The position numbers and the translations under genes were made by a program. Of a stretch of 49,691 bases of DNA, positions 9,281 to 24,811 are shown one piece after another. Each line of letters starts with the position of its first letter. Position 1 is the first letter of the stretch. Below the pieces are notes generated by a model, which worked only from the letters and a program-made list of their open reading frames with translations, made no database searches and was not told the DNA's origin. This stretch comes from a virus. Location of the stretch: the IMG/VR virus record IMGVR_UViG_3300009503_000005, positions 1-49,691 of that record; one strand, given 5' to 3'.

Positions 9281-9306
9281 AAAATCCCCTGGGAAAATCC
9301 CAGGGG
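9281..9306 (-). terminator. Rho-independent terminator
   Basis: Perfect stem CCCCTGGGA/TCCCAGGGG at 9286-9306, followed on the minus strand by ATTTTC. It lies just after the gene at 9316-9570. Confidence 0.82.
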
Positions 9307-9315
9307 TGCTGATTC

Positions 9316-9570
9316 CTACGACCACTCTCCCAGCCCGGGACGGTCGTGGTCCTCGGGCCTCGCTGCACGGATGTGATCCGCGCAGTAGACGATTTTCCCG
9401 CTCGGGTCCTGAATCCCAAGCGGGTGCCGCATCCCGCACGGGCAGTCTACGAGGTCGACAATGAGACTGCCCTCCGGAGCAGAGATGATCTGCTCCAATT
9501 CATCATCCCCGTACCAGTAGGGGTCTGAGTAGCCCCTAGGTCGGGAAAATCGACGTGTAAAAAACTCCAT
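9316..9570 (-). CDS. 84-residue Cys-containing protein behind a hammerhead leader
   Basis: Contains DCPCGMRHP and VYCADHIRA, so a small metal site is possible. AGGAGGAACC lies directly before ATG 9570. Its leader (9571-9650) folds as a hammerhead ribozyme, so its mRNA is probably cut 23 bases before the start codon. A terminator follows at 9281-9306. Function unknown. Confidence 0.75.
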   Translation of the reverse strand: MEFFTRRFSRPRGYSDPYWYGDDELEQIISAPEGSLIVDLVDCPCGMRHPLGIQDPSGKIVYCADHIRAARPEDHDRPGLGEWS

Positions 9571-9588
9571 CGGTTCCTCCTGCGGTTT

Positions 9589-9645
9589 CCCACTACTCCC
9601 CAGTGGGGAGTTTCGACCAGGGACCATCTGGTCTCGTCAGGCGGG
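9589..9645 (-). ncRNA. Hammerhead ribozyme (type I), leader of the gene at 9570
   Basis: All core positions are present: CUGACGA (9640-9634), then stem II (G9633 to G9628 pairs with C9620 to C9615, six base pairs), GAAA (9614-9611), stem III (A9611 to C9605 pairs with G9601 to U9595; loop ACU), and cleavage triplet GUA ending at 9594. Stem I pairs CCCGC (9645-9641) with GUGGG (9593-9589), including one G-U. Both RNA ends lie in stem I, so it is type I. The predicted cut is between 9594 and 9593, just upstream of the Shine-Dalgarno. Stem sequences differ from the second copy at 10335-10394 while pairing is kept. Confidence 0.88.
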
Positions 9646-9652
9646 GGAAAAC

Positions 9653-9688
9653 AAAATCCCCTACCGGGGATCACTCCTCGGTAGGGGA
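9653..9688 (-). terminator. Rho-independent terminator
   Basis: Ten-base-pair stem TCCCCTACCG/CGGTAGGGGA (9657-9666 with 9679-9688), then TTTTG and a second T-run on the minus strand. The stop codon of the gene at 9671 lies in the loop. The hammerhead starts immediately downstream. Confidence 0.8.
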
Positions 9689-10312
9689 CTCCAGTGCTTG
9701 CCGCAGCAGCGCCGCGAAGGCGGACTCCGCCTCGCGGCTCTTGGCCTCGGCAATGACATCAGTGAGAGTGACGGAGCCATCGTCCGCCACCCTGATGTAG
9801 TACTCGGTGGGCGACCCGTAGGTGCGCCCGCTACGGGACACCCCAAGGGTTGTCCCTGCTGGGGCCCAGAGCAGGTACTCGGGCCCGCCACCGGCGCGGC
9901 CCGCCATTCCCTGGGCACAGCGGCCCCGGGCCAGAATCCGGACCTCAGCAGGGAGGTCCTCGAGCACCATGGACTGGTGCGCGTACCTACCCCCACAGCG
10001 GGGACACTCTCCCTCCCCGTAGGGAATCTCCCTCTCCTGAGGGCAGCCCGTGAATCGGAATGGGCCGCCGAGGACCCAGGATCCTCGAAAACCGCTCTGA
10101 TCCCGGATTAGGATCAGAGCCCCGGTTCCAGGGGCGCTGGTGAAGGCAAAGCCCCCATCGCTCCCCTCCGGGATCAGCTCTACCCCATTGGGCACGGGCA
10201 CGAGCACCCGCTCGCGCCCGCGACCGGGCTCTCCGACCGCGATGGTGCGGTCGGGTCCGACGTGGATTTTAGGCTCCACTTGCCCGTAGCGGAAAATCGT
10301 GTATACTTTCAC
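9671..10312 (-). CDS. Unknown 213-residue protein with a CxxC motif, behind a hammerhead leader
   Basis: Beta-rich, with a zinc-knuckle-like segment (GECPRCGGRYAHQSM) in the middle and a helical C-terminus. The start is set at GTG 10312 because GGAGGAACC lies just upstream. The leader 10313-10400 is a hammerhead ribozyme. It ends in its own terminator. It shares the leader design with the gene at 9570. No function recognised. Confidence 0.78.
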   Translation of the reverse strand: MKVYTIFRYGQVEPKIHVGPDRTIAVGEPGRGRERVLVPVPNGVELIPEGSDGGFAFTSAPGTGALILIRDQSGFRGSWVLGGPFRFTGCPQEREIPYGEGECPRCGGRYAHQSMVLEDLPAEVRILARGRCAQGMAGRAGGGPEYLLWAPAGTTLGVSRSGRTYGSPTEYYIRVADDGSVTLTDVIAEAKSREAESAFAALLRQALESPTEE

Positions 10313-10334
10313 TGCGGTTCCTCCTCTATGGTTT

Positions 10335-10394
10335 CCCACGACACCCCGAAGCTGGGGTGTTTCGCCCTGGCACCACCAGGGCTCGTCAGGCGGG
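10335..10394 (-). ncRNA. Hammerhead ribozyme (type I), leader of the gene at 10312
   Basis: Core: CUGACGA (10389-10383), stem II of seven base pairs (10382-10376 with 10370-10364; loop UGGUG), GAAA (10363-10360), stem III (10360-10354 with 10347-10341; loop AGCUUC), cleavage triplet GUC ending at 10340. Stem I pairs CCCGC (10394-10390) with GUGGG (10339-10335). The predicted cut is between 10340 and 10339. Stems II and III differ in sequence from the copy at 9589-9645 but keep every pair, which is strong support for the fold. Confidence 0.9.
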
Positions 10395-10407
10395 TCGGGT
10401 GGGATGG

Positions 10408-11100
10408 TCAAGCGTCGACGCGCCTGATCATCTCGTGGGGACGCCAATTGGGCGTCCCGTTGTCCCGCAGCAAGGATTTGAACAGCACGACGGTATACGT
10501 CGTGCCGTCGGCGCGGACGGCGGTGCCAGCAGTGGCACCGTCAGGCGCTGTGGATCCATACGCACACCACAGCTCTGGCCTGGACAGGAGCCACTCGGCG
10601 GTGACTCCCTCCCACAGGCCATCGGGTCCAGCCGCCTGGGCCAGGGCGGCGTTGATGTTCGCCGCCCACGCCTCGGCCTGGGCGCGGCGCTTCTGTTCCG
10701 CCGCTTCCTCTCGGCGGCGGATGGCGGAGGTGGTAGCGGCTTCCCACTCGGAGGCGGTGCGCACTCCGAGCGGGAGGTTCCAGAAGGCATAGGAGCCAGC
10801 GCTCCCCTCCCATGAGAGGAGCACCTCGGCCCCGTTGTCCCCTGCCGCCTGGGCCATGGCGGTAAGGATATCCCGGGCCCACTCGGGCATCCGGCGGGAG
10901 AGCACATTGTGCTCCCCCTTCTGGGCACCGATGGACCCGGTGCCGTACACCACCAGCTCCCTCCTGGAGCCGCTGATGGGGTGGTGGCGCACGATCTCCA
11001 CCACCCGGACGAGCCGGGGTTCCCGACCCTCAGGCGGGGCCGGGATGAACCGATGCTTTGTTCCGTGGTCATTTGGTGACCACCATCCACCCGCTATCAT
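10408..11100 (-). CDS. Unknown 230-residue protein with a coiled-coil centre
   Basis: The N-terminal third is beta-rich; residues about 120-160 form an Ala/Glu/Arg helix (RRREEAAEQKRRAQAEAWAA); the C-terminus returns to mixed structure. GGAGGGCATT precedes ATG 11100. A terminator at 11117-11146 separates it from the gene upstream, and the second hammerhead begins just after its stop. No family recognised. Confidence 0.78.
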   Translation of the reverse strand: MIAGGWWSPNDHGTKHRFIPAPPEGREPRLVRVVEIVRHHPISGSRRELVVYGTGSIGAQKGEHNVLSRRMPEWARDILTAMAQAAGDNGAEVLLSWEGSAGSYAFWNLPLGVRTASEWEAATTSAIRRREEAAEQKRRAQAEAWAANINAALAQAAGPDGLWEGVTAEWLLSRPELWCAYGSTAPDGATAGTAVRADGTTYTVVLFKSLLRDNGTPNWRPHEMIRRVDA

Positions 11101-13222: not shown

Positions 13223-13606
13223 CTATTGAATACCGCTATTCGCATTCAATTTCTGCTTTGTCTCTCTGACATCAAGCACCAGATAGTCGGTCACATCCTC
13301 ACTGCGAGCGATGATCTCCGGACTCACACCGTTCTCGATCAGCTTCTGCTTGCTGATCGTGCGCCGCTCCTGGCGTCGCAGTGAGATGTTGTAAGCCTCG
13401 TATCTGGTTTTGAATACGGAATTCGCTAGGAGAATGTTGGTCAGCACCTCCTTAGCCGCATTCATTTTCTGTTCCAGTTCCCGGACCTGGCTCCGCAAGT
13501 CCAGATACTCAATCAGTCTCCGCTCTGCCTGCCTCCGGTCTGACTCCGGAATCGATGCATCATATCGAATGTCTGTAATGGTCTCCATTCTGATCTCCGT
13601 TCTCAT
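13223..13606 (-). CDS. Coiled-coil protein coupled to the polymerase gene
   Basis: 127 residues. A coiled coil (DLRSQVRELEQKMNAAKEVL, about 36-55) sits in the middle, followed by a basic alpha/beta part. The start ATG 13606 overlaps the polymerase stop (ATGA) and has GGGGAG upstream. This close coupling suggests a replication accessory role; that is inference only. Confidence 0.8.
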   Translation of the reverse strand: MRTEIRMETITDIRYDASIPESDRRQAERRLIEYLDLRSQVRELEQKMNAAKEVLTNILLANSVFKTRYEAYNISLRRQERRTISKQKLIENGVSPEIIARSEDVTDYLVLDVRETKQKLNANSGIQ

Positions 13607-15000
13607 TTCAGCTCTCCCCACCGCTCGGCTACTGAATACGATGCGCTGTGGGGTACTTTCAAATCCACGCAGCCGATCATGATATCTCTGAGATCGACCG
13701 CAAAACGTTCTGCGCAATCCTCACTCACCTCAAAAACCAATTCATCATGAATTTGTAGCAGCGGCATCACAACGTAATTCTGCCGCCGGTAGCGTTTCAC
13801 CAATTCCATCGCCTCGGCCATAGCGAGTTTGATAATGCCCTGGGCGCTGGATTGAATAGGCATATTCCCAGCTTCCCTGACGGCTTTCCTAGCAATCCTG
13901 GGAATCTCGCTCATCGCCGCTGGCAGCATGCGAACCCGACCGAACATGTCCCACACCATGCCGCGAGTGCGAGCACGGGATTCCTGCTCTCGCATCCAGT
14001 TCCGGATGCCTGGATAGGCGTTGAAAAACCCGCTGATGATGCCCTCGCAGGTCTCGATGCTCAGCACCGGCCCACCCTGGTCTACGATGTTCCATTGCGC
14101 TCCCGGAGCTGTTTGTCCATAGAGAATGCCGAATCCCACCGTCTTGGCTGGCAAGCGCTTCTGCTGTTTGAATTGCTTCCAGTCCCGGCGCTCGTCTTCG
14201 GTCCAGACAACCGTTTCCCCATTATCCTCGCGCTTGGCCATCTTCGACAGCCGCATATAATATTGCTTCTCCGCTTCCGACATCTGAAATGCGGAGAACA
14301 CAGTGAGGGTGTGAATATCGATGCCCTCGCGGAATGCGCGGAGCATATTCTCATCACCGCTAAGATGCCCTGCCAGCACCATCTCGATTTGACTCAGGTC
14401 ACACGATATCAGCAGATTGCCGGGTGCGGCGCGGAAGCAATTGCGAATCTCAATGCCAGTCTTGGTGCGGGCGGGAATGTTTTGCAGATTCGGATTCTCG
14501 CTGCTGAGCCTCCCCGTCTCGGTGCTCGTATGCCGAAACGTGGTGCGCAACCGGCCTTCCGCGTTGAGCATCTGCGGCAGCTTGGCGACGTAAGTATTCA
14601 CCAGCTTTCGCAGCTCCCGGATGCGCAGGATCATATCCACCGCCGGGTGCTGGCCCCGCATCGAGCGCAGCAGCTCGCTGTCCATGCTAATCTGACCACT
14701 GCGAGTCATTTGGAATCCCAGAGGCGCGGACAATCCCAGCTCCCGGATCAGCAAGCTTCGTACGTCATCACTGCTGGCGGCATTCACTTCCCGCCCAACC
14801 TCAATCGCCAGTCTCTCATTCAGATCCGAGATCTCGGCGTTCAATACCACTTCCAGTTGCGCAAACCTATCCCGGTCCGCCAGCAGTCCGTGCCGGTGAA
14901 ACTCGTAGATCATCGGCAGGCATTGCAGATCCAATTTGTAGACGTTGGCGGGGTCAGGATGATCTACGATCCTCACCCCACCGTACAGTGTGGTTCTCAT
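13603..15000 (-). CDS. polA: Family A DNA polymerase, polymerase domain only
   Basis: 465 residues, about half of a bacterial Pol I. Motifs: TETGRLSSENPNLQNIP (160-176), motif A DLSQIE (D201), motif B KTVGFGILYG (286-295), motif C QIHDELVFE (416-424, D419). Both catalytic aspartates are present. There is no 5' nuclease and no 3'-5' exonuclease domain in this chain; a complete exonuclease is encoded on the gene at 15875-17368. An extra segment of about 45 residues separates motifs A and B. It overlaps the genes on both sides by four bases. This should be the replicative polymerase. Confidence 0.97.
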   Translation of the reverse strand: MRTTLYGGVRIVDHPDPANVYKLDLQCLPMIYEFHRHGLLADRDRFAQLEVVLNAEISDLNERLAIEVGREVNAASSDDVRSLLIRELGLSAPLGFQMTRSGQISMDSELLRSMRGQHPAVDMILRIRELRKLVNTYVAKLPQMLNAEGRLRTTFRHTSTETGRLSSENPNLQNIPARTKTGIEIRNCFRAAPGNLLISCDLSQIEMVLAGHLSGDENMLRAFREGIDIHTLTVFSAFQMSEAEKQYYMRLSKMAKREDNGETVVWTEDERRDWKQFKQQKRLPAKTVGFGILYGQTAPGAQWNIVDQGGPVLSIETCEGIISGFFNAYPGIRNWMREQESRARTRGMVWDMFGRVRMLPAAMSEIPRIARKAVREAGNMPIQSSAQGIIKLAMAEAMELVKRYRRQNYVVMPLLQIHDELVFEVSEDCAERFAVDLRDIMIGCVDLKVPHSASYSVAERWGELK

Positions 15001-15308
15001 TGCTCACACTCAGTATCGGAATTCACAGCATAGAACCGATGATCACCACTGGCATTGCGGAACTGCCGCAGATACTCACTGCGCTTGTGCCGCCGTACTC
15101 GCCTAGCGGCATCAGCTCCATCGGCAATAGACAGCAGTACTGCCGCTAGGATCCGGCACAGAGTGGGGCTGGCGGCGATCAGTATCAGCAACGCTGTCAG
15201 AATCACACCCAATCCGCCAAACAGTGGCTTCAGCGAGTCCAGATACATCAGCATGGCTGAAGCCAGCGCAATAGCTGAAATCGATCCGAATACCAATCCT
15301 GCATTCAT
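14997..15308 (-). CDS. Small membrane protein
   Basis: 103 residues with two to three hydrophobic segments (about 5-22, 28-45, 48-60) and a charged C-terminus. AAGGAGGGAAT precedes ATG 15308. It lies between a DNA-binding protein gene and the polymerase gene and overlaps the polymerase start (ATGA). It could anchor the replisome to the membrane or be unrelated. Confidence 0.75.
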   Translation of the reverse strand: MNAGLVFGSISAIALASAMLMYLDSLKPLFGGLGVILTALLILIAASPTLCRILAAVLLSIADGADAARRVRRHKRSEYLRQFRNASGDHRFYAVNSDTECEQ

Positions 15309-15343
15309 ATTCCCTCCTTCACTATCACTATTCGCATTCACAT

Positions 15344-15859
15344 TCACCTCTGACGCCGCAACCAGTTTGGATTGCGGGCTTTGCTGTCCGCCGCCGCCAC
15401 CGACCAGTCCCGTATCAGATCCGGATGGTGCTTCTCGATGTACTCCCTGAGATTATGCGCCGTATCCGAGGATACAGTAGCATTGGCGTCGTGGACGATA
15501 TGGTGCATCCTGGGGTAACTGATGCCCATGATGGAAGCCAGATCCTTTCTCGATACACCGCGCCGCAGCAGCTCATTCACCAGAGAGTGGATATTATGAC
15601 TGCACTTCCGAGTGCGGCTGTAATACTGCTCCACCGCCAGCAACCAGTTGTGCATTTCGGATTCTTCCATTGGAGTCCGAATCGCTCCAAGCTCGATTTT
15701 GCAGTGTGGCAGCACATCCAGATTCATCCTCAACATCGCTCCCATGTACATGTCCAGTACGCGACGCGCGGAATCATCATCGCCGAGCACAATCAGATCC
15801 GCTCCATGCTCCGACTTTCGAATCTCCACTTTGGTATTGATATAGCTGGTAATCGTCAT
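15344..15859 (-). CDS. Helix-turn-helix protein in the replication block
   Basis: 171 residues. A helix-turn-helix lies at about 98-122 (RRGVSRKDLASIMGISYPRM). The N-terminal 90 residues are alpha/beta. The C-terminus ends SKARNPNWLRRQR, a version of the R-x-N-P motif seen in the late proteins. Weak GGAG nine bases before ATG 15859. It may regulate the block or bind an origin; untested. Confidence 0.83.
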   Translation of the reverse strand: MTITSYINTKVEIRKSEHGADLIVLGDDDSARRVLDMYMGAMLRMNLDVLPHCKIELGAIRTPMEESEMHNWLLAVEQYYSRTRKCSHNIHSLVNELLRRGVSRKDLASIMGISYPRMHHIVHDANATVSSDTAHNLREYIEKHHPDLIRDWSVAAADSKARNPNWLRRQR

Positions 15860-15874
15860 TCCCGATTCTCCTCA

Positions 15875-17368
15875 TCAGTTCTCATATTCACTATTGGTTC
15901 CTATATTCACTCCCACTTCCTTGCTCAGCACGGACCACAGCCTCAGTGTGGCATCCGCGTCACGGCAGGCATAACGGATTACGGCATCCGGCGAGCAGCA
16001 GCGAATGTCAGGATGGGGAGCGCCTGTGAATTCCGCAGCCAGAGTGAATGTAGAATCCGAGCCGGATTCCGCTAACCGGATCAGCTTTCCCAGTTTCTTA
16101 TGGATTTCCATTACCGGGCTGCAATCGAGCAGCAGCTTCTGCACTTCTTTCAGCGCTCGGTCCTGCTTCTCGTTCTCGCTGTGGACAACCCACTGAGGAG
16201 CATGCTGCTCGTAGGCGCTCCAGATCTCGGCTATGTGATCCGCAATGCGCTTTCGATAATGCGCCAGAGTCTCACTGCGGCCACGCATGAGGATCTCCAT
16301 TTCCGTGCCGTATTCCCGATTCGGAATCACCATCGGGAATTCGAATTCCAGCCGCGTCTGCTCCCGCCGGGCCCACTCCGCTAGGGATTGCATGATATGA
16401 GGTCGAATCGCCTCATCGTAATCATGCATCTCCATGCCCAGCAGAATCCGTGACAGCGGCTTGAGTCCCAAAGGCAATGTGCGCAGCGAGTAGGCTGCGA
16501 GCATCGTATCGTGAATCTGAACGTGATCCGGAATCTCAATGCCGCTGCGGTTGAGATAGTCCACATCGTAGGGTGCATTGTGGAATACGAGCACAGACGC
16601 CCGACGCAGCACGGATTGCATCACATCCCGATTCCAGGTACAGAATGCCACTCCGGGAGCGGTGGCCCAACTCATCACCACTACCTGATCCGCCGCCGTT
16701 TCCGTATCGACTGCCATCACCGGAGCGGTTTCGATTTCCGATTCCGACTCCACCTTGCAGTAGCGAGCTTCGATATCATCTATCGGCGCTGTTCCAGTTC
16801 TCAGAATTTCTCCCGCTACGGAAAACGACAGCATGATGCTCAGCATGATCTTGGAGATGCGTCCTTCGGACCGCACAGCTGCCGCTGGGTGATAGCTCGG
16901 CACAATCCACATAGCATGTTCCGAGCTCCAATGCGGCACGGCGCATAGGTCATCCATACTGCCAGTGAGTCCCAGCCTATGCGCCGCAATCTTGCCCAGA
17001 GCGATGGCTACGGTAGCAGGACTAGATGCCAGTTCCTGATCTAGGTAGCAAGATGCGCAGTGGTCAATCAGCTCCTGGCTGGGGGTTCTGGCCCCACGAT
17101 GCAGATCCGGCATGCACTTCACCACATTGGTAACCAGCACCTGCTCCCGCTTGCGATTCACATAGGGCAAGTAGAGCTGATTCAGCATCGTACCGCTGTC
17201 GCCGCAGAAGGGAATGCCCTTCTCGTTTTCCGTTTCGCCGGGAGCCTCGCCAATGATGACCAGATCCGCCTTGGGATTCCCCGAAGCGGGAACCACTGTG
17301 GAATTCCTCGGGCACAATGAGCTTTGATAATACTGGCACTGATGACTGCGAATTCTCGATTGTGACAT
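15875..17368 (-). CDS. Uracil-DNA glycosylase fused to a DEDD 3'-5' exonuclease
   Basis: 497 residues. Residues 1-190 match family 4/5-type uracil-DNA glycosylases: GEAPGE (40-45), PFCGDSGTMLNQLY (53-66), TNVVKC (80-85) and PSYHPAA (157-163); cysteines at 11, 19, 85, 104 and 107 could hold an iron-sulfur cluster. Residues about 215-485 are a Pol I-type proofreading exonuclease: AVDTET (D221, E223), FHNAPYDVD (D268) and YACRD (Y466, D470). The polymerase in the neighbouring operon lacks this domain. I infer that the fusion works with it in trans, removing uracil and mismatches. Glycosylase-like domains joined to whole phage Pol A proteins are known (SPO1-type); here the joint is split differently. 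Confidence 0.92.
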   Translation of the reverse strand: MSQSRIRSHQCQYYQSSLCPRNSTVVPASGNPKADLVIIGEAPGETENEKGIPFCGDSGTMLNQLYLPYVNRKREQVLVTNVVKCMPDLHRGARTPSQELIDHCASCYLDQELASSPATVAIALGKIAAHRLGLTGSMDDLCAVPHWSSEHAMWIVPSYHPAAAVRSEGRISKIMLSIMLSFSVAGEILRTGTAPIDDIEARYCKVESESEIETAPVMAVDTETAADQVVVMSWATAPGVAFCTWNRDVMQSVLRRASVLVFHNAPYDVDYLNRSGIEIPDHVQIHDTMLAAYSLRTLPLGLKPLSRILLGMEMHDYDEAIRPHIMQSLAEWARREQTRLEFEFPMVIPNREYGTEMEILMRGRSETLAHYRKRIADHIAEIWSAYEQHAPQWVVHSENEKQDRALKEVQKLLLDCSPVMEIHKKLGKLIRLAESGSDSTFTLAAEFTGAPHPDIRCCSPDAVIRYACRDADATLRLWSVLSKEVGVNIGTNSEYEN

Positions 17369-18100
17369 TCAGTCCCCCTCGTTGATAACCGTTCTGACTT
17401 TCCTGGCAATACCCTTTCCGATTCCTGGAATTTGCATCCAGTCCTGCTCGTCTGCTTCCACCATGCGGCGGATGGTGCGGAATGCCCGCTCCACATCCCG
17501 GCTTCGCTCCCAGCCGATCATGGGCAACTGCACTGCTACCCGGCGCAGAGTGCTGGGAGCTACCAGCAGTGTGGACCTGGGGTCCGGAGTGTAAATCACT
17601 TTGTGGCTCCCATGCTCATCCCAATCCTTCTGCCACCACTGCTGCAGCGTCATGAGCAGCATCGCGGTTTCAATTTCACTGCTCGATCTGCGCACCAGCA
17701 CTCCAATGCGCGTATCCAGCGACGTGAGATAGGACTCGTAATCCCGCCACATGAATTTCTGCTGCCCCACGCGAACATCGGTCCACTTCCCATAGCGGAA
17801 CTGCTGCAGGATTCCGGAATGTGGATCCGACCGCACAATCCCCTCGACGATAAGGTATAGCCGTGCATACTCCACACTCATTCCCGGAAGCTGATGCCCG
17901 CACAGACGCCCGGTGCGCATGCTCTGCAGCAGATCCGTTACGGTTTTGTATTCAGCCCCGATAAGGCAGGGTCCGTGAGGGCCATTCCCGCTCCAGCAGG
18001 CGTCTCCATACTCCAGGCGGCGAAGTTCACACTCCGCGCCCAGCTTACGCAGTGGCTCCAGAAGACGAGAACTGCCCTCGCGGTCATCAATCCAGATCAT
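17369..18100 (-). CDS. ERCC4/XPF-type structure-specific nuclease
   Basis: 243 residues. The N-terminus MIWIDDREG and GAEYKTVTDLLQS (48-60) correspond to the ERCC4 active site (ERKxxxD, here E50, K52, D56, with Tyr for the usual Arg). The C-terminus (222-243, MQIPGIGKGIARKV) is a helix-hairpin-helix. This is the minimal nuclease plus HhH layout of XPF/Mus81/Hef proteins, which cut branched DNA. It overlaps the upstream gene by 14 bases and abuts the glycosylase/exonuclease gene. A role in resolving forks or recombination intermediates is likely. Confidence 0.9.
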   Translation of the reverse strand: MIWIDDREGSSRLLEPLRKLGAECELRRLEYGDACWSGNGPHGPCLIGAEYKTVTDLLQSMRTGRLCGHQLPGMSVEYARLYLIVEGIVRSDPHSGILQQFRYGKWTDVRVGQQKFMWRDYESYLTSLDTRIGVLVRRSSSEIETAMLLMTLQQWWQKDWDEHGSHKVIYTPDPRSTLLVAPSTLRRVAVQLPMIGWERSRDVERAFRTIRRMVEADEQDWMQIPGIGKGIARKVRTVINEGD

Positions 18101-18449
18101 AGCTGGAAATCAGTTTCCCTTCCGCTCCGACTTCATCCATCACCGTATTGCAGACTTCGAAAAGGAATTCCGCAATCCGCTGTTTGGTTTCGTAGTCCAC
18201 ATCCAGATTCACTTCCAATCTCCGAACACGGTCTCCGATGTAGACAGTGAGGTGCTTTCCCAGCCACTTGCAGTGTAGATTCAGGTTGTTCCAACGCGCA
18301 AACTCCCTTTCCTGTCTGTCTATATACTCACTGACCAGGTCCATCACTTTCTCGGCCAGTTCCCTACTGCAATCGCGGATTGCACCCACCTCGTAACCGC
18401 AATCGTCATAGAAAGCGGCTGTGCCATCTGGAAACAAATTCATATCCAT
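18087..18449 (-). CDS. Unknown 120-residue protein
   Basis: Small acidic alpha/beta protein with beta strands near the C-terminus (HLTVYIGDRVRRLEVNLDVDYET). GAGGAATGAG precedes ATG 18449. It lies between the Sak4-like ATPase and the ERCC4 nuclease. Function unknown. Confidence 0.78.
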   Translation of the reverse strand: MDMNLFPDGTAAFYDDCGYEVGAIRDCSRELAEKVMDLVSEYIDRQEREFARWNNLNLHCKWLGKHLTVYIGDRVRRLEVNLDVDYETKQRIAEFLFEVCNTVMDEVGAEGKLISSYDLD

Positions 18450-18498
18450 CTCATTCCTCCATTGTGAGAGTGAACTCGGATCATCGATGTGAATATCA

Positions 18499-19284
18499 CT
18501 ACACCTCCGGCGCCGTCACGCCGTCATCCCAGTTCTCAGCATCAGTTTCCGGCAACGCTTCCATAGCGATTGCCGGAAACAGCGCCATGATGCCGCTGAA
18601 CACGCTGCCGTTGAGCACCGTAGGCCGGTATCGGGAATCCACAACGTGCGTCTGGAATTCCACACCACCACCCTCGAGCTTCACGGTGACGTGTTTGACA
18701 ACCAGGTCCACAATATAGCCGAAGTCCGCGAATCCGGCGCGTTCCCACTCTCCGGTCCAGGAGTCCACGCCGTCTTTATTCGTCTTGTAAACCTTCTTGA
18801 CCTTGTGGATCCAGATGCTGTTTTTGCCGCTCGCAGCAGCTTTGTTGAGCAGCGCCCGGAATTCCGCATTCACCGGGCCGTAGTTGTGCGGCATGACTTT
18901 AGCCAAGCGCCCGAATCGCGCCAGGCGCAGCAGTTCCCAGAATTCGGTTGCGGTGTCGATTACGATACTGCGAAACTGCTTTGAGGTCATGGCCTCATAG
19001 AGCGCTCCGGCTACAGCATCCCAAGCCTTCTCGTAGGCATCGATCTTCAATCCCACAGGCGGCACAGTGTGCTGGAACAGCAGGATCTCTTTTCCCGCTC
19101 GCTGCCATTGCCTGACAGCGCTTTCTGTACCGGCGTCGGAACTGATTACTGCAATCGGACCCGGAGCCGACAGCGCCCAGAACGTCTTGCCACGTTTCTC
19201 GTGACCGTAGCTACACACCGTCAGCCAGGATTGCTCTGTAGTCTCGAGTTTCCGAAAGTAGCTGCTATTACTGCCAGTACTCAT
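18499..19284 (-). CDS. Sak4-like RecA-fold ATPase (AAA_24 type)
   Basis: 261 residues. Walker A GHEKRGKT (27-34), a Walker B aspartate in RSIVIDTATEFW (D110), and the RecA-like core pattern of phage nucleotide-binding proteins of the Sak4/AAA_24 group. These assist single-strand annealing or recombination-dependent replication. The neighbouring PD-(D/E)XK nuclease and candidate ssDNA-binding protein form the usual company. GAGGTGAG lies upstream of ATG 19284, which overlaps the previous stop. Confidence 0.9.
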   Translation of the reverse strand: MSTGSNSSYFRKLETTEQSWLTVCSYGHEKRGKTFWALSAPGPIAVISSDAGTESAVRQWQRAGKEILLFQHTVPPVGLKIDAYEKAWDAVAGALYEAMTSKQFRSIVIDTATEFWELLRLARFGRLAKVMPHNYGPVNAEFRALLNKAAASGKNSIWIHKVKKVYKTNKDGVDSWTGEWERAGFADFGYIVDLVVKHVTVKLEGGGVEFQTHVVDSRYRPTVLNGSVFSGIMALFPAIAMEALPETDAENWDDGVTAPEV

Positions 19285-19664
19285 AGCTCACCTCGCAGCG
19301 CCATCATGATCCGCGACAGTAATCCAGCCTCATGCCATCTCCGCTCTCGCATCAGGTAGCGGAATACCACCTCGTCCAGCTTCATTCCGGAATGCAGGCC
19401 AGCGTCAATTTCCGTTGCATAGTATTTCCTGAGAAACAGGGAAATTGACTCTACTACCCGCTCTGCCTCCCGGACTCGGTTTCGGTCATTGGTGAGCTGT
19501 GTCAGCTCAGATTGCATCCAGCGCTTATTGCTCTCCAATTCCCGCATCTGCTTCTCGAGCTCCTGCATCTGAGCTTCGAGCTTCGACATCACGTCTTGAA
19601 GCTCGTTATTCTCCTGCACAGTCTGTCTGAGTTTCGATATCACATTCTGAACTTCACTATCCAT
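19281..19664 (-). CDS. Coiled-coil protein
   Basis: 127 residues; residues 5-60 form a heptad-rich coiled coil (KLEAQMQELEKQMRELE). The start ATG 19664 has AAGGAGAG upstream; the longer in-frame start has no ribosome site. It lies between nuclease and ATPase genes, so it may be a scaffold or loader; untested. Confidence 0.8.
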   Translation of the reverse strand: MDSEVQNVISKLRQTVQENNELQDVMSKLEAQMQELEKQMRELESNKRWMQSELTQLTNDRNRVREAERVVESISLFLRKYYATEIDAGLHSGMKLDEVVFRYLMRERRWHEAGLLSRIMMALRGEL

Positions 19665-19666
19665 GC

Positions 19667-20200
19667 TCACTCTCCTTTCGCTAAATCGATATACGGTTCC
19701 AATATGTTCTTCCACGTCTGTTTCAACTCCTCAGGGCTATACTCGATATCCCAAATCGCTAATTGATACTGGCGTCCGATATGGAGCACATGCATTCGGG
19801 CTCGAGTCCACTCACCCTCTCCCAGGCACCATAGATACCCCTGCAGTTGCAGATTCCAGTACAGGTTCTCCGTAGGCGGCTTCACTGCCGACGTTGTGGT
19901 CTTGATCTCGTGCAGCAGCTTGTTATCGACATCGATGGCGTCCACGGAGAAGTAGACCCGGTTGGAGAACAGGGTCCCAGGATGATATATCGCATTGGGG
20001 ATCCTGGGACCATACCAGTCCTCCCACGCCAAGCCTACCGCCATGCGCAATTGCGACGCCGCATCCGGAGTATCTCCGTAGGGATCCATATGGCAGGCCT
20101 GGAGGGCGGCCCGGATGACGCCCGAGAGGTGAACGCCTCTAGGCCTTCCGGGATCCCGGTCCGGCAACCGGAACTCGTAGTCAATCCGTTCCGCCCGCAT
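19667..20200 (-). CDS. PD-(D/E)XK nuclease of the Cas4/RecB-like exonuclease type
   Basis: 177 residues. Active-site pattern: E60, D87/D90 (SVDAIDVD), EIK (98-100) and QLQGYLW (118-124). This is the signature of single-strand or end-processing exonucleases used in phage recombination. No cysteine cluster for an iron-sulfur site is evident, unlike true Cas4. Probably acts with the Sak4-like ATPase. Confidence 0.87.
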   Translation of the reverse strand: MRAERIDYEFRLPDRDPGRPRGVHLSGVIRAALQACHMDPYGDTPDAASQLRMAVGLAWEDWYGPRIPNAIYHPGTLFSNRVYFSVDAIDVDNKLLHEIKTTTSAVKPPTENLYWNLQLQGYLWCLGEGEWTRARMHVLHIGRQYQLAIWDIEYSPEELKQTWKNILEPYIDLAKGE

Positions 20201-20208
20201 CGCCGTTC

Positions 20209-20994
20209 CTAGAAGGGAACCTCTTCCGGCAACGACACCATGCCGTCCTCAACGTTGAAGCCGCGTCCGGCCAAGAATTCCGGTGAGCCCGCCAGAGAGA
20301 TCACCGCTTTGCGCTCGTCAGCCGGTAACTTGTTCAGCCGCTTGATGAGCATCATCTGCAGGCTTTGGATCTTCATCGGCTTGCCTGCATCCGAGAGCAC
20401 GCTGAGAACCTCCGAGTAAGCCCGCTCCCGGAGCTCCTCACTCACTTCGGATTTCGCTGCTGACGCTGCTGCGGGCTTCCCCGCCGCTTTGCCTTTGCCC
20501 TCGCGCAGGATCTTAGTAACCGCAAGGTAAGTACGCTCCCGAGCCGGGCCCTCGGATCCCTTGCCGGTATTCAGGCTCTTCCAGGACTCCGGCACCGGCA
20601 AGCGCTTGATGTGCACCTGCATACCGTCAATCACGGAGATGTCGCCGGAATCCAGCTTCGAGACGTCGAAGCCCTCTTTGCGCAGCGACTCCATGAACAA
20701 ATGGAACACCGTATCCTGATACGGAGTCTTGCCGCTCACGGACTCTACGGTTTTACCGTCATCGCTCGGTACGAAATCCGCGACCTTGCCAAACGACAAG
20801 TAATCGGTATGGACAGCACCGCTGTCATCACCGAGCACACGGTAGTCGAGCTTGAGGGCGCACACCAGCCGCTGCGGGTCTGTGATGACGCCGTTGTAAT
20901 CGTAAGTGGTGAACCGAGCGGACGTGATTTCTACATCCACATCGGAGACAAGACCACCCTTCACAAAGGTGGTCGGGTTCAGACTGATAGGCAT
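20209..20994 (-). CDS. Probable ssDNA-binding or recombination accessory protein
   Basis: 261 residues. The N-terminal 145 residues are beta-rich; a Lys/Ala linker (ILREGKGKAAGKPAAASAAK) leads to a helical C-terminal domain ending in acidic and hydrophobic residues (EEVPF), as in SSB tails. I do not recognise a named family; the assignment rests on the fold impression and on its place between a nuclease and a helicase. TGGAGGTCAACA precedes ATG 20994. Confidence 0.8.
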   Translation of the reverse strand: MPISLNPTTFVKGGLVSDVDVEITSARFTTYDYNGVITDPQRLVCALKLDYRVLGDDSGAVHTDYLSFGKVADFVPSDDGKTVESVSGKTPYQDTVFHLFMESLRKEGFDVSKLDSGDISVIDGMQVHIKRLPVPESWKSLNTGKGSEGPARERTYLAVTKILREGKGKAAGKPAAASAAKSEVSEELRERAYSEVLSVLSDAGKPMKIQSLQMMLIKRLNKLPADERKAVISLAGSPEFLAGRGFNVEDGMVSLPEEVPF

Positions 20995-21081
20995 TGTTGA
21001 CCTCCAAATCTAAAGTTGATATTGGTACTCACACCAGCGCTCACACTGGCGCGTGAATGCCATAAGCGGCATTCAAATTCT

Positions 21082-22623
21082 TTACAGCTTGGGGAGTGGA
21101 TCCGGAAGCAGATGCACAGACTCGCTCTGCACCACACGCTTGCGGAACCACTGTGGAAAGATGCCCGGCCTGCGCTTGAATACGGACAGAGCGCAGCCGT
21201 CCACGACCAGGGTTTCACAGCGATCATTGCGGTGGCGCAGTCCCCTACCGCACATCTGCACCAGATTCTGGGCCATGACGTACTGCGGGTATACTGGCCT
21301 GCTCTCTTTTCTCGCTGCGACCACCGGGTCGCTCAGGTCCGGAAACGGGGCTTTGAGAACCACTTGGAACTCCGCTTCCGCATCCGGGAAATCGTGTCCG
21401 ACTCCGACGCTAGGACTCAGCAGCAGTGCTGGTCCTGAAAACAGTTTGTAATTCCGAATCGCGGCTGCAGCGTCAGCGCCGTTGGCATGCCACACCAGGT
21501 GGTGCTGCACCCTGCCACGCAGAAACTCGACCATTTGCATGGTGCGGTTGTAGCTGCCCGTATGGATAATGCCCTTGCGGTCCTGCCGCTGCTTGATCCA
21601 ATGCAGCGCATGCTGCATAGCGGTCTTCAGATCCGACTTCTCACTACGATGATTGAGCACCGGATCCGGTAGCAGGAACACGGGACCGTTCTCACTCGGG
21701 AATTCGCTCTCATAGTCATAGAGCGTGAATTCCCCAGGGGAGAGCCCCAGCAGATAACAGGTCTCCTTGTTGATAGTCGCCGAAACCAGCGTCGTCTTCC
21801 AGCTCCCGAACAGCCATCGGCGGGCGTAATCGGAAGCCCATACGGGAGATGCAAACAGCGCCGCATCGGAATTCCCACGGCGAACAATAGCGCCGGTAGG
21901 GGGAAGCTCGCTCAATCTCACAACCGCATCGTGCAGCGCCGCTGCTTTCCGAGCCGATTTCGGATCCGATGCTGAGGATTCGAGCAGCTTGCGAACTTGA
22001 GGCTCGATTTTGAGCGCCCATTCCGCCCATCGCTTCGGGCTGTCGGATTCCGGCGATGGTTCATAGCGCTGGAGCTGAGATAGTTCTGATTGCGACAATC
22101 GCACGGAGCAGTGGCTGGTGATCATGTCCATCACCATATGGGCCTCGTCCATCACCAGCAGATCCACAGGGAACGCGATTCCGGATTTCCGCAACGCAAA
22201 CCACATGGCGTAATTGGTCACCACCGCTGGCGCTCGCATCGCGGCTTCGAGTTGCTGCTGGTAGGGGCATTCCCGGCAATGATGTCCCAAGCGTCGCGAT
22301 AGTCCGCAGTCGAGTCCGGGATGATCGTGGCACTCGAAATTACTAGCGCCTCTCAGATCCACCACCAGCTTGGGAAACTCTCTCAGGATCTGATTCTGTA
22401 GCGTCTTTGTGGCCGTCAGAATCACCATGCGCTCTGCCGCCAGCCTTCCCGCAGCAACGTAGGCCAGTGTTTTGCCCACTCCGGTAGGGGCCGCATGCAC
22501 CGTGGTTTTCGCTTCCAGCATCGACAGCGCAATGCGCTCCGCCATTTGCGCCTGCTGCGGGCGCATGGCGGTGAATTTCGAAGGGAGAGCTAGCTCTGAG
22601 AAGAACTTGGGATCCTCGAACAT
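21082..22623 (-). CDS. DinG/XPD-like superfamily 2 helicase with iron-sulfur cysteines
   Basis: 513 residues. Walker A APTGVGKT (45-52), four cysteines at about 98, 106, 116 and 119 in the place of the XPD iron-sulfur cluster, DEAH (159-162), and a C-terminal helicase domain with QMCGRGLRHRND. XPD/DinG helicases unwind 5' to 3' and remove R-loops or flaps. ATG 22623 overlaps the stop of the upstream gene, suggesting reinitiation. A hairpin lies after its stop (21053-21074) without a T-run. Confidence 0.93.
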   Translation of the reverse strand: MFEDPKFFSELALPSKFTAMRPQQAQMAERIALSMLEAKTTVHAAPTGVGKTLAYVAAGRLAAERMVILTATKTLQNQILREFPKLVVDLRGASNFECHDHPGLDCGLSRRLGHHCRECPYQQQLEAAMRAPAVVTNYAMWFALRKSGIAFPVDLLVMDEAHMVMDMITSHCSVRLSQSELSQLQRYEPSPESDSPKRWAEWALKIEPQVRKLLESSASDPKSARKAAALHDAVVRLSELPPTGAIVRRGNSDAALFASPVWASDYARRWLFGSWKTTLVSATINKETCYLLGLSPGEFTLYDYESEFPSENGPVFLLPDPVLNHRSEKSDLKTAMQHALHWIKQRQDRKGIIHTGSYNRTMQMVEFLRGRVQHHLVWHANGADAAAAIRNYKLFSGPALLLSPSVGVGHDFPDAEAEFQVVLKAPFPDLSDPVVAARKESRPVYPQYVMAQNLVQMCGRGLRHRNDRCETLVVDGCALSVFKRRPGIFPQWFRKRVVQSESVHLLPDPLPKL

Positions 22624-23168
22624 CACTCCGCTACGAATTCCCGATACCGCTTGGACACAGATCTCCATTCCTCCTGAAACCTCCTCTTCCACTGGCTACT
22701 GTCACTTACTTTGTTAATGGCGTGGTCTATGTAGGCAATATGCGACGCCAGCGTGGTCTTGTCTCCGTCTAATAGCATTTGCTCACAACTCGAGCAGGCG
22801 AGCTCTACCGCAGTGCGGATAGCCTGCTCGTTTTCGTAGTCCCGCATCACTCGGATGATCGCTTCGCAAGCGGAAATGGTAGTCACCACTCCCGGCGCAA
22901 TGCGGTTTACAACACGCAGCGCCAGCACAATGGCGAAGCGAATGAAATCATCCGACGTCGGAAACGGGTATTGTTTCGACTGCACGAGCTGCTCAATGGC
23001 TCTTGCTACCGCCGGGGGAACACGGGAAATGACTTTCGCGCTATGGCCTTTGGTGTCGGCGGCGGGTATATTCCACGCCTCCTCATCCATTTGTAGGTTC
23101 TCGACGCCGTTGATGGCATTGGCTATGACGTCGAGAACCTGGGCCGACTCCTGACTGCGCTTTCTCAT
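22623..23168 (-). CDS. Ribbon-helix-helix-like protein
   Basis: 181 residues. Residues about 40-85 (KVISRVPPAVARAIEQLV, FPTSDDFIRFAIVLAL) match the look of a ribbon-helix-helix DNA-binding domain; the C-terminal 100 residues are helical. It is the second gene of the early operon. It may regulate the operon or bind an origin. Confidence 0.8.
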   Translation of the reverse strand: MRKRSQESAQVLDVIANAINGVENLQMDEEAWNIPAADTKGHSAKVISRVPPAVARAIEQLVQSKQYPFPTSDDFIRFAIVLALRVVNRIAPGVVTTISACEAIIRVMRDYENEQAIRTAVELACSSCEQMLLDGDKTTLASHIAYIDHAINKVSDSSQWKRRFQEEWRSVSKRYREFVAE

Positions 23169-23449
23169 TGCGTGACTCCCGGGATGATTACGGATCTCAC
23201 CGCAGCCCGCTCGAGCTCCACCTGCTCATCCACTACGCCCTTGTGATTGGCCTTGAGTTCTCCCTGCATAGCAGTGAGGAAATCCAAATATGCTGAGGCC
23301 AGTTGCACCACTGCGGCGTGAATGTCAGCATCCGGGGGGAGATTGGTTATCGATTTGACTCTCTCAATCAGGTCCGCTACTGCAGTAAGTCTGGCTTCCA
23401 GATACTGCTTTCGTGCTTCGAGGATGGCTTTCGCTTGATGATATGTCAT
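23165..23449 (-). CDS. Unknown 94-residue helical protein, first gene of the early operon
   Basis: All-helical, with a long first helix (KAILEARKQYLEARL). GCGGAG precedes ATG 23449. The operator at 23479-23491 and promoter at 23491-23519 lie just upstream. Function unknown. Confidence 0.78.
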   Translation of the reverse strand: MTYHQAKAILEARKQYLEARLTAVADLIERVKSITNLPPDADIHAAVVQLASAYLDFLTAMQGELKANHKGVVDEQVELERAAVRSVIIPGVTQ

Positions 23450-23478
23450 TGGTCTCCGCTCTCAGTTCCGATTCTCAG

Positions 23479-23491
23479 TTTAGAAACTAAA
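23479..23491. promoter_or_regulatory. 13-bp palindromic operator candidate, copy 2
   Basis: TTTAGAAACTAAA, placed directly after the -10 box and over the expected start of the early operon, where a bound protein would block transcription. Confidence 0.7.
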
Positions 23492-23519
23492 GCCTAGCCG
23501 CACTCGGTATCAGTGTCAA
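23491..23519 (-). promoter_or_regulatory. Early-operon promoter
   Basis: Minus strand: -35 TTGACA (23519-23514), 17-base spacer, -10 TAGGCT (23496-23491). It drives 23449 and the replication block. Confidence 0.75.
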
Positions 23520-23523
23520 TACT

Positions 23524-23567
23524 CTCAACATGTAGTGGCTCTCACTGAAAATCCACAACATGTTGTG
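23524..23567. promoter_or_regulatory. Paired palindromes of the divergent switch
   Basis: A perfect 14-bp palindrome CACAACATGTTGTG (23554-23567) sits inside the plus-strand promoter spacer; a degenerate copy CTCAACATGTAGTG (23524-23537) sits just behind the early-operon -35 box. The layout fits two operators for the regulator at 23581. Confidence 0.7.
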
Positions 23568-23573
23568 TATACT
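23545..23573 (+). promoter_or_regulatory. Leaderless promoter of the HTH regulator
   Basis: -35 CTGAAA (23545-23550), 17-base spacer, -10 TATACT (23568-23573), then seven bases to ATG 23581; no Shine-Dalgarno. Confidence 0.75.
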
Positions 23574-23580
23574 GATGTCC

Positions 23581-23862
23581 ATGAAAGGTCGCAAGCCCAG
23601 CTCGGAATTGTTCAGTGTAGTCTGGGCTGGGGTGCTCAACCGCTATACCAGAGCAGAACTTGCTAAGCGCTGTGGGATGAGCAGAATGAAGCTGTACCTA
23701 CTGCTGGTGGGGAGACTGCCAATTCGGTGGGAAGACACAGCGGCGCTCAGCCGTGCGGTGGGATTGCCTGCGGATGAGATTCTGCAGCGGTTGCTGCGAA
23801 TGCGGGATGAGTATCAGAAGTCAAAATCGAGTGTGAGTATCAGAAGTCAAAATCGAGTGTGA
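23581..23862 (+). CDS. Small HTH regulator, candidate lysogeny repressor
   Basis: 93 residues. A helix-turn-helix at about 24-43 (TRAELAKRCGMSRMKLYLLL) is followed by a Cro/C1-type second half (LSRAVGLPADEILQRLL). The start ATG 23581 is chosen because the promoter implies an mRNA beginning there, as for lambda cI. It diverges from the early operon over paired palindromes. The last residues are encoded by a 26-bp tandem repeat. A role as switch repressor is inferred from position. Confidence 0.85.
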   Translation: MKGRKPSSELFSVVWAGVLNRYTRAELAKRCGMSRMKLYLLLVGRLPIRWEDTAALSRAVGLPADEILQRLLRMRDEYQKSKSSVSIRSQNRV

Positions 23863-23868
23863 GTATCA
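23807..23868. repeat. 26-bp tandem repeat at convergent gene ends
   Basis: The unit GAGTATCAGAAGTCAAAATC plus GAGTGT occurs twice and is followed by a third partial copy. It covers the last codons of the HTH gene and reaches the stop of the minus-strand gene at 23866. A short slipped-strand duplication. Confidence 0.8.
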
Positions 23869-24342
23869 GGTACTGCTATTGACGACGATCTCAATAGGCT
23901 TGAGTTTGCGGTAGCAGACCGTGCCTCGCGGGAAGTGGGGTGGATCCGCATGGGGCGGCCCGGTCCAAGCATCCGTAACGATCTTCAGCCCCACGCTGCT
24001 GATGTCGGTTTCATCATCGAAGCGGAGTATCAGATTGCGCTTAGGAGGCTCCATCTTGCCACGGGCCAGGCACTTCAGCACTAGCCTGGAGTCCTGGCCC
24101 GCGTAGCGCTTAGCTGCAGCGAGGCTGGAGAATGCAAACAGCCCTCCCACCGGAGCTTGAGACCATTTCCCAATGCGGTACTCAACCGCGAGTGGGGAAT
24201 CAGGAGAGCACATCCGGTTCCTTAAACCCAAAGTGATTACCACTTTGTAGACAACGTCAGTGCTAGTGTCAGTAGCCATACCAGTATCAGTATCAGTATT
24301 CGCCTTCCAGCGCCAGAAGCCGCGCTGACTACCCAGTATCAT
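23866..24342 (-). CDS. Unknown 158-residue protein
   Basis: Beta-rich with a basic middle; no family recognised. The start is uncertain: ATG 24342 has no clear ribosome site, and neither does the internal ATG at about 24279. The N-terminal codons lie in a run of GATACT repeats (24275-24300). It converges on the HTH gene. Confidence 0.65.
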   Translation of the reverse strand: MILGSQRGFWRWKANTDTDTGMATDTSTDVVYKVVITLGLRNRMCSPDSPLAVEYRIGKWSQAPVGGLFAFSSLAAAKRYAGQDSRLVLKCLARGKMEPPKRNLILRFDDETDISSVGLKIVTDAWTGPPHADPPHFPRGTVCYRKLKPIEIVVNSST

Positions 24343-24364
24343 TGCTCAGCGCCGGAACTCGCTA

Positions 24365-24811
24365 TTACCTTCCCCAGCCGATTCCCATTCCGATTGCCAC
24401 TTGTCGGTCCGAGAGACTGGTCTTAATAAGCCGCACCGGAATCACTAGGAACCATCCCTTGCCCAGAGGGGCTACTACAGCACCGCCTCCGGAGTAGGAG
24501 CCGCCTACGTTATCGCCGCTCGAAGCCACACCGGCATCGGCAGTGGCGTAGACCGTGAACGGGCCGAAGTGTTCCAATACCGGAGTGGCAATACCCGTGC
24601 GGAATGAGACCTGGCTGAGGAACTTCGACGGAGACAGTGACGTCACCTCCGCTGTGCTAAAGCTGTAAACCCGATCTGCTACTTGTTTTGTGTAGCTGCC
24701 CCAGCCATTGACTTGCGGAGCCGCGTATTGATTCCAATTCACGCCGCCTGCGACGAAATCAGCGCCGAAAGCGAGCGTGGAAGCGAGAACGGAAAGCAGT
24801 AGTGGTTTCAT
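24365..24811 (-). CDS. Exported beta-rich protein, possibly outer membrane
   Basis: 148 residues. The N-terminus MKPLLLSVLASTLAFGAD is a typical signal peptide with a cleavage site after FGA. The mature part alternates hydrophobic and polar residues with many Gly and Ser and ends GMGIGWGR, like a small outer-membrane barrel. The promoter is leaderless (TATAAT, six bases, ATG). A cell-surface or superinfection-exclusion role in a Gram-negative lysogen is a reasonable guess. Confidence 0.8.
   Translation of the reverse strand: MKPLLLSVLASTLAFGADFVAGGVNWNQYAAPQVNGWGSYTKQVADRVYSFSTAEVTSLSPSKFLSQVSFRTGIATPVLEHFGPFTVYATADAGVASSGDNVGGSYSGGGAVVAPLGKGWFLVIPVRLIKTSLSDRQVAIGMGIGWGR

Follow-up and report, generated by a model that had tools for sequence, protein, structure and literature searches.

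Multiple hammerhead ribozymes were reported by Perreault et al. in 2011 to flank genes in prophages, and they were proposed to cut long phage RNAs into single-gene messages (PMC3088659). According to the main text of that study, pseudoknots are predicted in about 40% of hammerheads, the triple hammerheads of A. tumefaciens cleave in E. coli, and a transcript 5' end of the haloviruses HF1 and HF2 was mapped no more than 3 nt from the hammerhead cut (PMC3088659). The purpose of bacterial and phage hammerheads is still described as unknown (PMC10085705). In engineered constructs, a hammerhead has been put to a defined use: RiboJ, an sTRSV ribozyme with an added 23-nt hairpin, sits in the 5' untranslated region, where it cuts off the RNA ahead of it and gives the message a 5' hairpin in front of the Shine-Dalgarno site (Clifton 2018, PMC6206723). 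With RiboJ, mRNA increases about twofold, the gain in protein is two- to tenfold, and the terminal hairpin was suggested as a possible cause (PMC6206723).

We analyzed a stretch of 49,691 nt from an uncultured phage (the window; IMG/VR record IMGVR_UViG_3300009503_000005, positions 1 to 49,691), whose minus strand carries two complete type I hammerheads, at 9589-9645 (copy A, both stem I strands included) and 10335-10394 (copy B). Their core is exact, with CUGACGA and GAAA in both copies and the cleavage triplet GUA in A and GUC in B. Three helices surround it, of which II and III are closed by loops and stem I is open, the type I arrangement. Along the minus strand of copy A, the 5' strand of stem I (9645-9641) is followed by CUGACGA (9640-9634), stem II (9633-9615, 6 bp), GAA (9614-9612), stem III (9611-9595, 7 bp), H17 (9594), and the 3' strand of stem I (9593-9589), the two strands of which read CCCGC and GUGGG. 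The same elements of copy B occupy 10394-10390, 10389-10383, 10382-10364 (7 to 8 bp), 10363-10361, 10360-10341 (7 bp), 10340, and 10339-10335. Copy A is predicted to be cut at GUA^G, between 9594 and 9593, from the hammerhead consensus NUH and the position in the alignment, and copy B at GUC^G, between 10340 and 10339, from the consensus. These sites lie 12 to 14 nt upstream of the Shine-Dalgarno sequence AGGAGG (minus strand, 9576-9581 for gene A and 10320-10325 for gene B) and 23 nt (A) or 27 nt (B) upstream of the start codon. By analogy with the well-studied hammerhead family, both copies would cleave themselves, leaving a 5'-hydroxyl and a 2',3'-cyclic phosphate.

Both copies were recovered by folding, by a descriptor scan, and by a covariance model. 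The descriptor, which demands the core and three stems of at least 4 bp each, matched the window exactly at A and B and gave no match in 100 dinucleotide shuffles of it. The covariance model R1, built from 21 relatives with the window excluded, scored A at 70.8 bits (E 6e-19) and B at 61.3 bits (E 5e-16), and the next-best match in the window with filters off reached 10.8 bits. The original prediction had placed complete type I hammerheads in the leaders of the genes starting at 9570 and 10312, with a cut just ahead of the Shine-Dalgarno site; our results agree with it on both points and supply the strand, which it had left unstated.

A covariance-model search had also been proposed as a check of these elements, and here the outcome depends on the model. 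Rfam release 15 gave no match in the window at the gathering score; at a relaxed E-value, its type I model (Hammerhead_1, RF00163) reached 17.7 bits versus a gathering threshold of 34, and its type III model produced a misregistered match of 17.3 bits. Taken formally, this speaks against the hammerheads, whereas the phage-built R1 speaks for them. However, perfect-core relatives are missed as well: 13 stretches with relatives of the phage family likewise received no Rfam hammerhead call, and dozens of relatives with perfect cores fall below the Hammerhead_1 threshold. We therefore regard the Rfam result as a blind spot of its hammerhead models, which this family exposes, and not as a refutation. 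The gathering threshold is a limit on scores set by curators and says nothing about the biochemistry of the family, and the window copies share the topology and core of RF00163 although both score below its threshold.

On the minus strand, from 5' to 3', the locus comprises gene C (10408-11100, 230 aa), hammerhead B, gene B (9671-10312, 213 aa, GTG start), a terminator-like hairpin with a T-run, hammerhead A, gene A (9316-9570, 84 aa), a second terminator-like hairpin, and gene D. The open reading frames (ORFs) are conserved in related contigs, gene A in L056 and L127, gene B in L056, L058, and L127, and gene C in L057 and L058. A Pfam search of genes A to C returned no match, nor did megablast and blastn searches of the window against named phages. 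Between the stop codon of gene C and stem I of ribozyme B, which follows about 13 nt downstream, there is no terminator. Ahead of ribozyme A, the intrinsic-terminator-like hairpin (9648-9688, minus strand; arms 9688-9680 and 9665-9657) overlaps the end of gene B, and its T-run (9656-9648) abuts the ribozyme, just as had been noted in the original prediction. In L127, this terminator stem is preserved by a compensatory change from A-U to G-C. Since RNA reaching ribozyme A must pass this terminator, antitermination or read-through would have to take place.

The order of genes around the ribozymes (HH) varies among relatives of the window. It is C-HH-B-term-HH-A-term-D in the window and C-HH-A-x-HH-B-term-HH-D in L127, and L058 has an extra gene and hammerhead between C and B; thus, genes change places around the leaders. 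In L058:1632-2838 and L127:192-1653, the relatives of window positions 9300-11100, genes have been moved or inserted along with a hammerhead leader, in a cassette-like manner. Elsewhere on the minus strand of the window, a DNA polymerase (PHROG 17) at 13603-17368 is split: its ORFs at 13603-15000 and 15875-17368 are separated by two small ORFs, one of which has a weak HTH match.

The window copies belong to a large family. Among public viral contigs, a first pattern consisting of the core, the first stem II pair, the start of stem III, and GTHGTGGG was found in six contigs, several of them with two copies, and a relaxed pattern was found in 55 stretches. The relaxed pattern with the catalytic A6 changed to T gave 0 matches in the same contigs, which argues that the catalytic base is under selection. 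The family set, enlarged by searching with variant patterns of stem I and by scanning bacterial genomes, contains 206 distinct ribozymes, for all of which the core, UH, and a stem I of at least 4 bp were required. Bacterial matches come mostly from Firmicutes metagenome bins, with others in cyanobacteria, Desulfoscipio geothermicus DSM 3669, and a Geminicoccaceae bin. When whole genomes were searched with R1 (best 150 candidates per genome), the copies of each lay on one contig, consistent with their being prophage-borne. Two named phages carry members, Aphanizomenon phage CL131 (two copies) and Pseudomonas phage PaP3 (one copy). Single-copy stretches are common; at the other extreme, the 46-kb contig 3300036780_000230 holds 16 copies at 16715-24783, about 8 kb, all on one strand.

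This family resembles the clustered bacterial and prophage hammerheads of 2011 in being type I, in its canonical core, in its pseudoknot between arms, and in having several copies that flank single genes, whereas the cases in the main text of that study form small clusters, such as the triple one, and not arrays of up to 16 copies in 8 kb (PMC3088659). The same source describes HHphage of HF1 and HF2, likewise a leader hammerhead of a virus gene, with a start codon following 13 nt downstream; unlike the window copies, it is a core variant and belongs to archaeal viruses (PMC3088659). The original prediction had called paired copies as gene-leader processing sites in a terminator-separated block unusual; the arrangement has a precedent in the prophage hammerheads already known to flank genes.

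Conservation of the structure is evident in the pairing. In an alignment of 21 sequences, 98.6% of pair cells are standard and 15 of 20 pairs have changed on both sides, against 26 to 50% pairing in slid controls, although the pairing of stems I to III is there partly by construction, because the stems were required in selecting the sequences. The pseudoknot was not required in picking them. It joins GGU, GGC, or GAC of loop II to ACC, GCC, or GUC in the tail after stem I, and all three of its pairs covary. Watson-Crick pairing is found in 173 of the 206 ribozymes versus 88 (maximum, 105) after the tails have been reassigned among the ribozymes. In both window copies, the loop II GGU matches a tail ACC, these being at 9623-9625 and 9586-9584 on the minus strand for copy A. 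Within the lineage of the window (L056, L058, and L127; ten ribozymes), the three stems contain 17 cells with double changes versus 5.2 after shuffling. The core and three stems described in the original prediction are thus borne out, and the pseudoknot, together with a hairpin in the 3' product, had been overlooked there.

The copies share a characteristic gene context. They are intergenic and on the strand of the genes, with their 5' edge at the upstream stop codon. A Shine-Dalgarno site and the start of an ORF of at least 40 aa follow within 120 nt of the cut in 154 of the 196 ribozymes with flanks, compared with 43.6 (maximum, 54) at random positions and 17 on the opposite strand; the median distance from cut to start is 42 nt. 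In all 48 multi-copy stretches, the copies lie on the same strand, and the gap between adjacent ribozymes is filled by one ORF in 42 of 85 pairs. At the level of sequence, this context and the compensatory changes in three relatives lend support to the idea, put forward originally, that the paired hammerheads act as processing sites in gene leaders. In 10 of the 85 steps from gene to ribozyme, the upstream gene stops on the UGA within the CUGA core of the ribozyme that follows. A looser count, in which 68 of 196 upstream frames ended on the core UGA, was dropped because every core contains this UGA and open frames are frequent by chance. Examples of core-UGA stop codons are found in L080:1850-5518 and in L152, L081, L107, L109, L151, and L030; as the 5' strand of stem I is coding in such cases, translation could disturb the folding of the ribozyme.

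The cut message begins with the 3' strand of stem I, typically GUGGG or GCGGG, and in most copies a complement to this strand either comes at once (GUGG-GAAA-CCAC or GCGG-GAAA-CCGC) or is found just ahead of the Shine-Dalgarno site (GUGGG...CCCAC). Counting as a 5'-terminal hairpin four Watson-Crick pairs from nucleotide 1, within 32 nt, we found one in 142 of the 206 ribozymes versus 24.5 (maximum, 41) with shuffled tails. The excess is seen for compact hairpins (99 versus 14.9 in the control) and for distal ones (43 versus 11.4), and it persists when each stretch is represented by a single ribozyme (84/121 versus 14.4; maximum, 23). When the start is moved one or two bases later, 58 and 22 copies qualify. 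The hairpin also depends on the strand that each ribozyme carries: giving GCGG to the GUGG ribozymes lowers the count from 73 to 13 of 98, and giving GUGG to the GCGG ribozymes lowers it from 63 to 11 of 89. Some of the rare stem I variants keep it as well (GUAG-GAAA-CUAC, ACGG-GAAA-CCGU, and GCGAG-AAGCCA-CUCGC), and the GCAG class mostly lacks it (present in 2/9). That the hairpin is a by-product of the pseudoknot was ruled out for most copies, since the strand at its 3' side matches loop II in only 22 of 142.

In the window, the hairpin is clear for copy A and doubtful for copy B, as judged from product folding. The message of gene A is predicted to start with GUGG-GAAA-CCGC, containing one U-G pair (9582-9593, minus strand; fold probability, 0.99; minimum free energy, -5.9 kcal/mol), in line with the family statistics. 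For gene B, the candidate GUGG-GAAA-CCAU (10328-10339, minus strand) ends in a G-U pair and is weak (probability, 0.07), a longer competing pairing with CCGC past the Shine-Dalgarno site being preferred in the product. Among the ten sequences of the window lineage, 97.5% of cells allow the hairpin to pair, and its covariation is not significant.

We propose that these ribozymes are cis-acting sites of co-transcriptional mRNA processing that combine message separation with a 5' hairpin, the best and, in our judgment, the probable explanation of the directly observed sequences, conservation, pairing covariation, and gene context. A transcript spanning genes C, B, and A would fold a hammerhead in each intergenic leader, held active by the pseudoknot between loop II and the tail, and would cut itself. 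At its 3' end, the upstream message would keep the ribozyme, stem III included, and would carry a 2',3'-cyclic phosphate; the downstream message would begin, just ahead of the Shine-Dalgarno site, with a 5'-hydroxyl and a short, uniform leader. In most relatives, the freed 3' strand of stem I would then re-pair just downstream, creating a hairpin at nucleotide 1. This hairpin would block re-ligation, making cleavage irreversible, would protect the 5' end against nucleases requiring it to be unpaired, and would leave the Shine-Dalgarno site exposed. The order of hammerhead first and hairpin second, like the effects on stability and translation, is what we infer. Points that weigh against the proposal are the U-G pair in the copy A hairpin and the weakness of that of copy B, the lack of significant covariation of the hairpin in the window lineage, and the terminator ahead of copy A.

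The hairpin may compete with the ribozyme and not just follow cleavage. Stem I and the hairpin are mutually exclusive, and the nearest-neighbor energies of ViennaRNA favor the hairpin over stem I even before cleavage (mean probability, 0.69 versus 0.14), in a model that leaves out the pseudoknot and the core contacts. The hammerhead must then win through tertiary contacts or by forming first; otherwise, the hairpin would be a timer limiting cleavage. The latter case would amount to a kinetic switch, in which the downstream strand stops the ribozyme, cutting takes place only before the hairpin strand is transcribed, and uncut polycistronic RNA is intended too, in a ratio that may be regulated. 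The covariation that conserves the hairpin in the family would suit such a switch, which we nonetheless consider unlikely: the contacts omitted from the energies include a pseudoknot conserved in most copies, the partner strand comes only about 4 nt downstream in many of them, allowing very little time, and the constant position of the cut before the Shine-Dalgarno site in most copies fits processing. Still less probable, to a degree that makes it marginal, is that a gene between two hammerheads, with its 5'-hydroxyl and 2',3'-cyclic phosphate ends, is released as a circular or spliced message, its circle being closed by re-ligation or by a host RtcB ligase. Gene B and many genes in the arrays are indeed flanked by two copies, but single copies are common, a paired 5' end would hinder ligation, and circular or spliced products were sought and none seen in the 2011 study (PMC3088659).

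The shuffled gene order in the window, L127, and L058 could also be read to mean that near-identical repeated leaders let genes recombine into and out of the operon as mobile cassettes, cleavage being incidental. We find this improbable, because the catalytic core is kept, cleavage-dead copies appearing to be rare, and because the stems are maintained by compensatory change and not by sequence identity, which points to a function of the RNA and not to DNA homology. As for chance or nonfunctional hammerhead-like folds, the motif is simple and Rfam finds no match at threshold, yet the empty shuffles, the scores of 61 to 71 bits with an independent model, the lack of core-mutant matches, the covariation, and the conserved context refute them at the sequence level and make this reading the most improbable one. 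If processing in cis is extended to a widespread mode of phage mRNA processing, we see the case as evenly balanced. Each gene would then have its own hammerhead leader to cut the long transcript into single-gene messages, after which the stem I strand would refold as a 5' hairpin that protects the message; such leaders, with as many as 16 in one array, would be the natural equivalent of RiboJ.

The parallel to RiboJ would lie in the removal of upstream RNA and in the hairpin left before the Shine-Dalgarno site; in the phage family, however, the 5' strand of the hairpin is the ribozyme's own stem I strand and not an added element. That several hammerheads flank genes in phages was known in 2011, as was the pseudoknot, and what appears new here is the 5' hairpin derived from stem I. 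The main text of the 2011 study makes no mention of a Shine-Dalgarno site or of a hairpin after cleavage (PMC3088659). A literature search, with subscription papers, preprints, and supplements outside its scope, likewise found no description of a 5' hairpin formed from the stem I strand or of arrays of up to 16, which is no proof of novelty. The family offers a concrete and testable answer to the question of what phage hammerheads are for, namely, message separation with a built-in 5' hairpin, and the isolated phages PaP3 and CL131 are where this idea can be tested. The phage leaders could also provide compact, natural RiboJ-like parts for engineering, the original RiboJ design reportedly being that of Lou in 2012.

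In PaP3, the one match to R1 (45.5 bits) lies at L169:44027-44114 on the minus strand, where its 5' edge is at the orf67 stop codon. The product can form the hairpin (UUGG-GAAA-UCAA, with one G-U pair), although stem I differs (CCCAA/UUGGG). A possible GTG start is found about 30 nt past the cut, in place of the annotated start. A PaP3 hammerhead, which may or may not be this element, was active in the 2011 assay (PMC3088659).

Hammerheads are not the only ribozymes in such positions. At L027:798-3936 (minus strand; contig IMGVR_UViG_3300024268_000341), most of a succession of small genes are preceded by self-cleaving ribozymes that differ in class, with hammerheads interleaved among two pistol ribozymes recognized by Rfam (60 and 69 bits) and similar leaders past the cut in all of them. 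On the same strand, L027:255-345 encodes an RNA that folds strongly (z = -4.6) and has no match in Rfam; it occupies a ribozyme-like leader position before AAAAAGAAAAGG and a gene and may represent a further class or variant of ribozyme.
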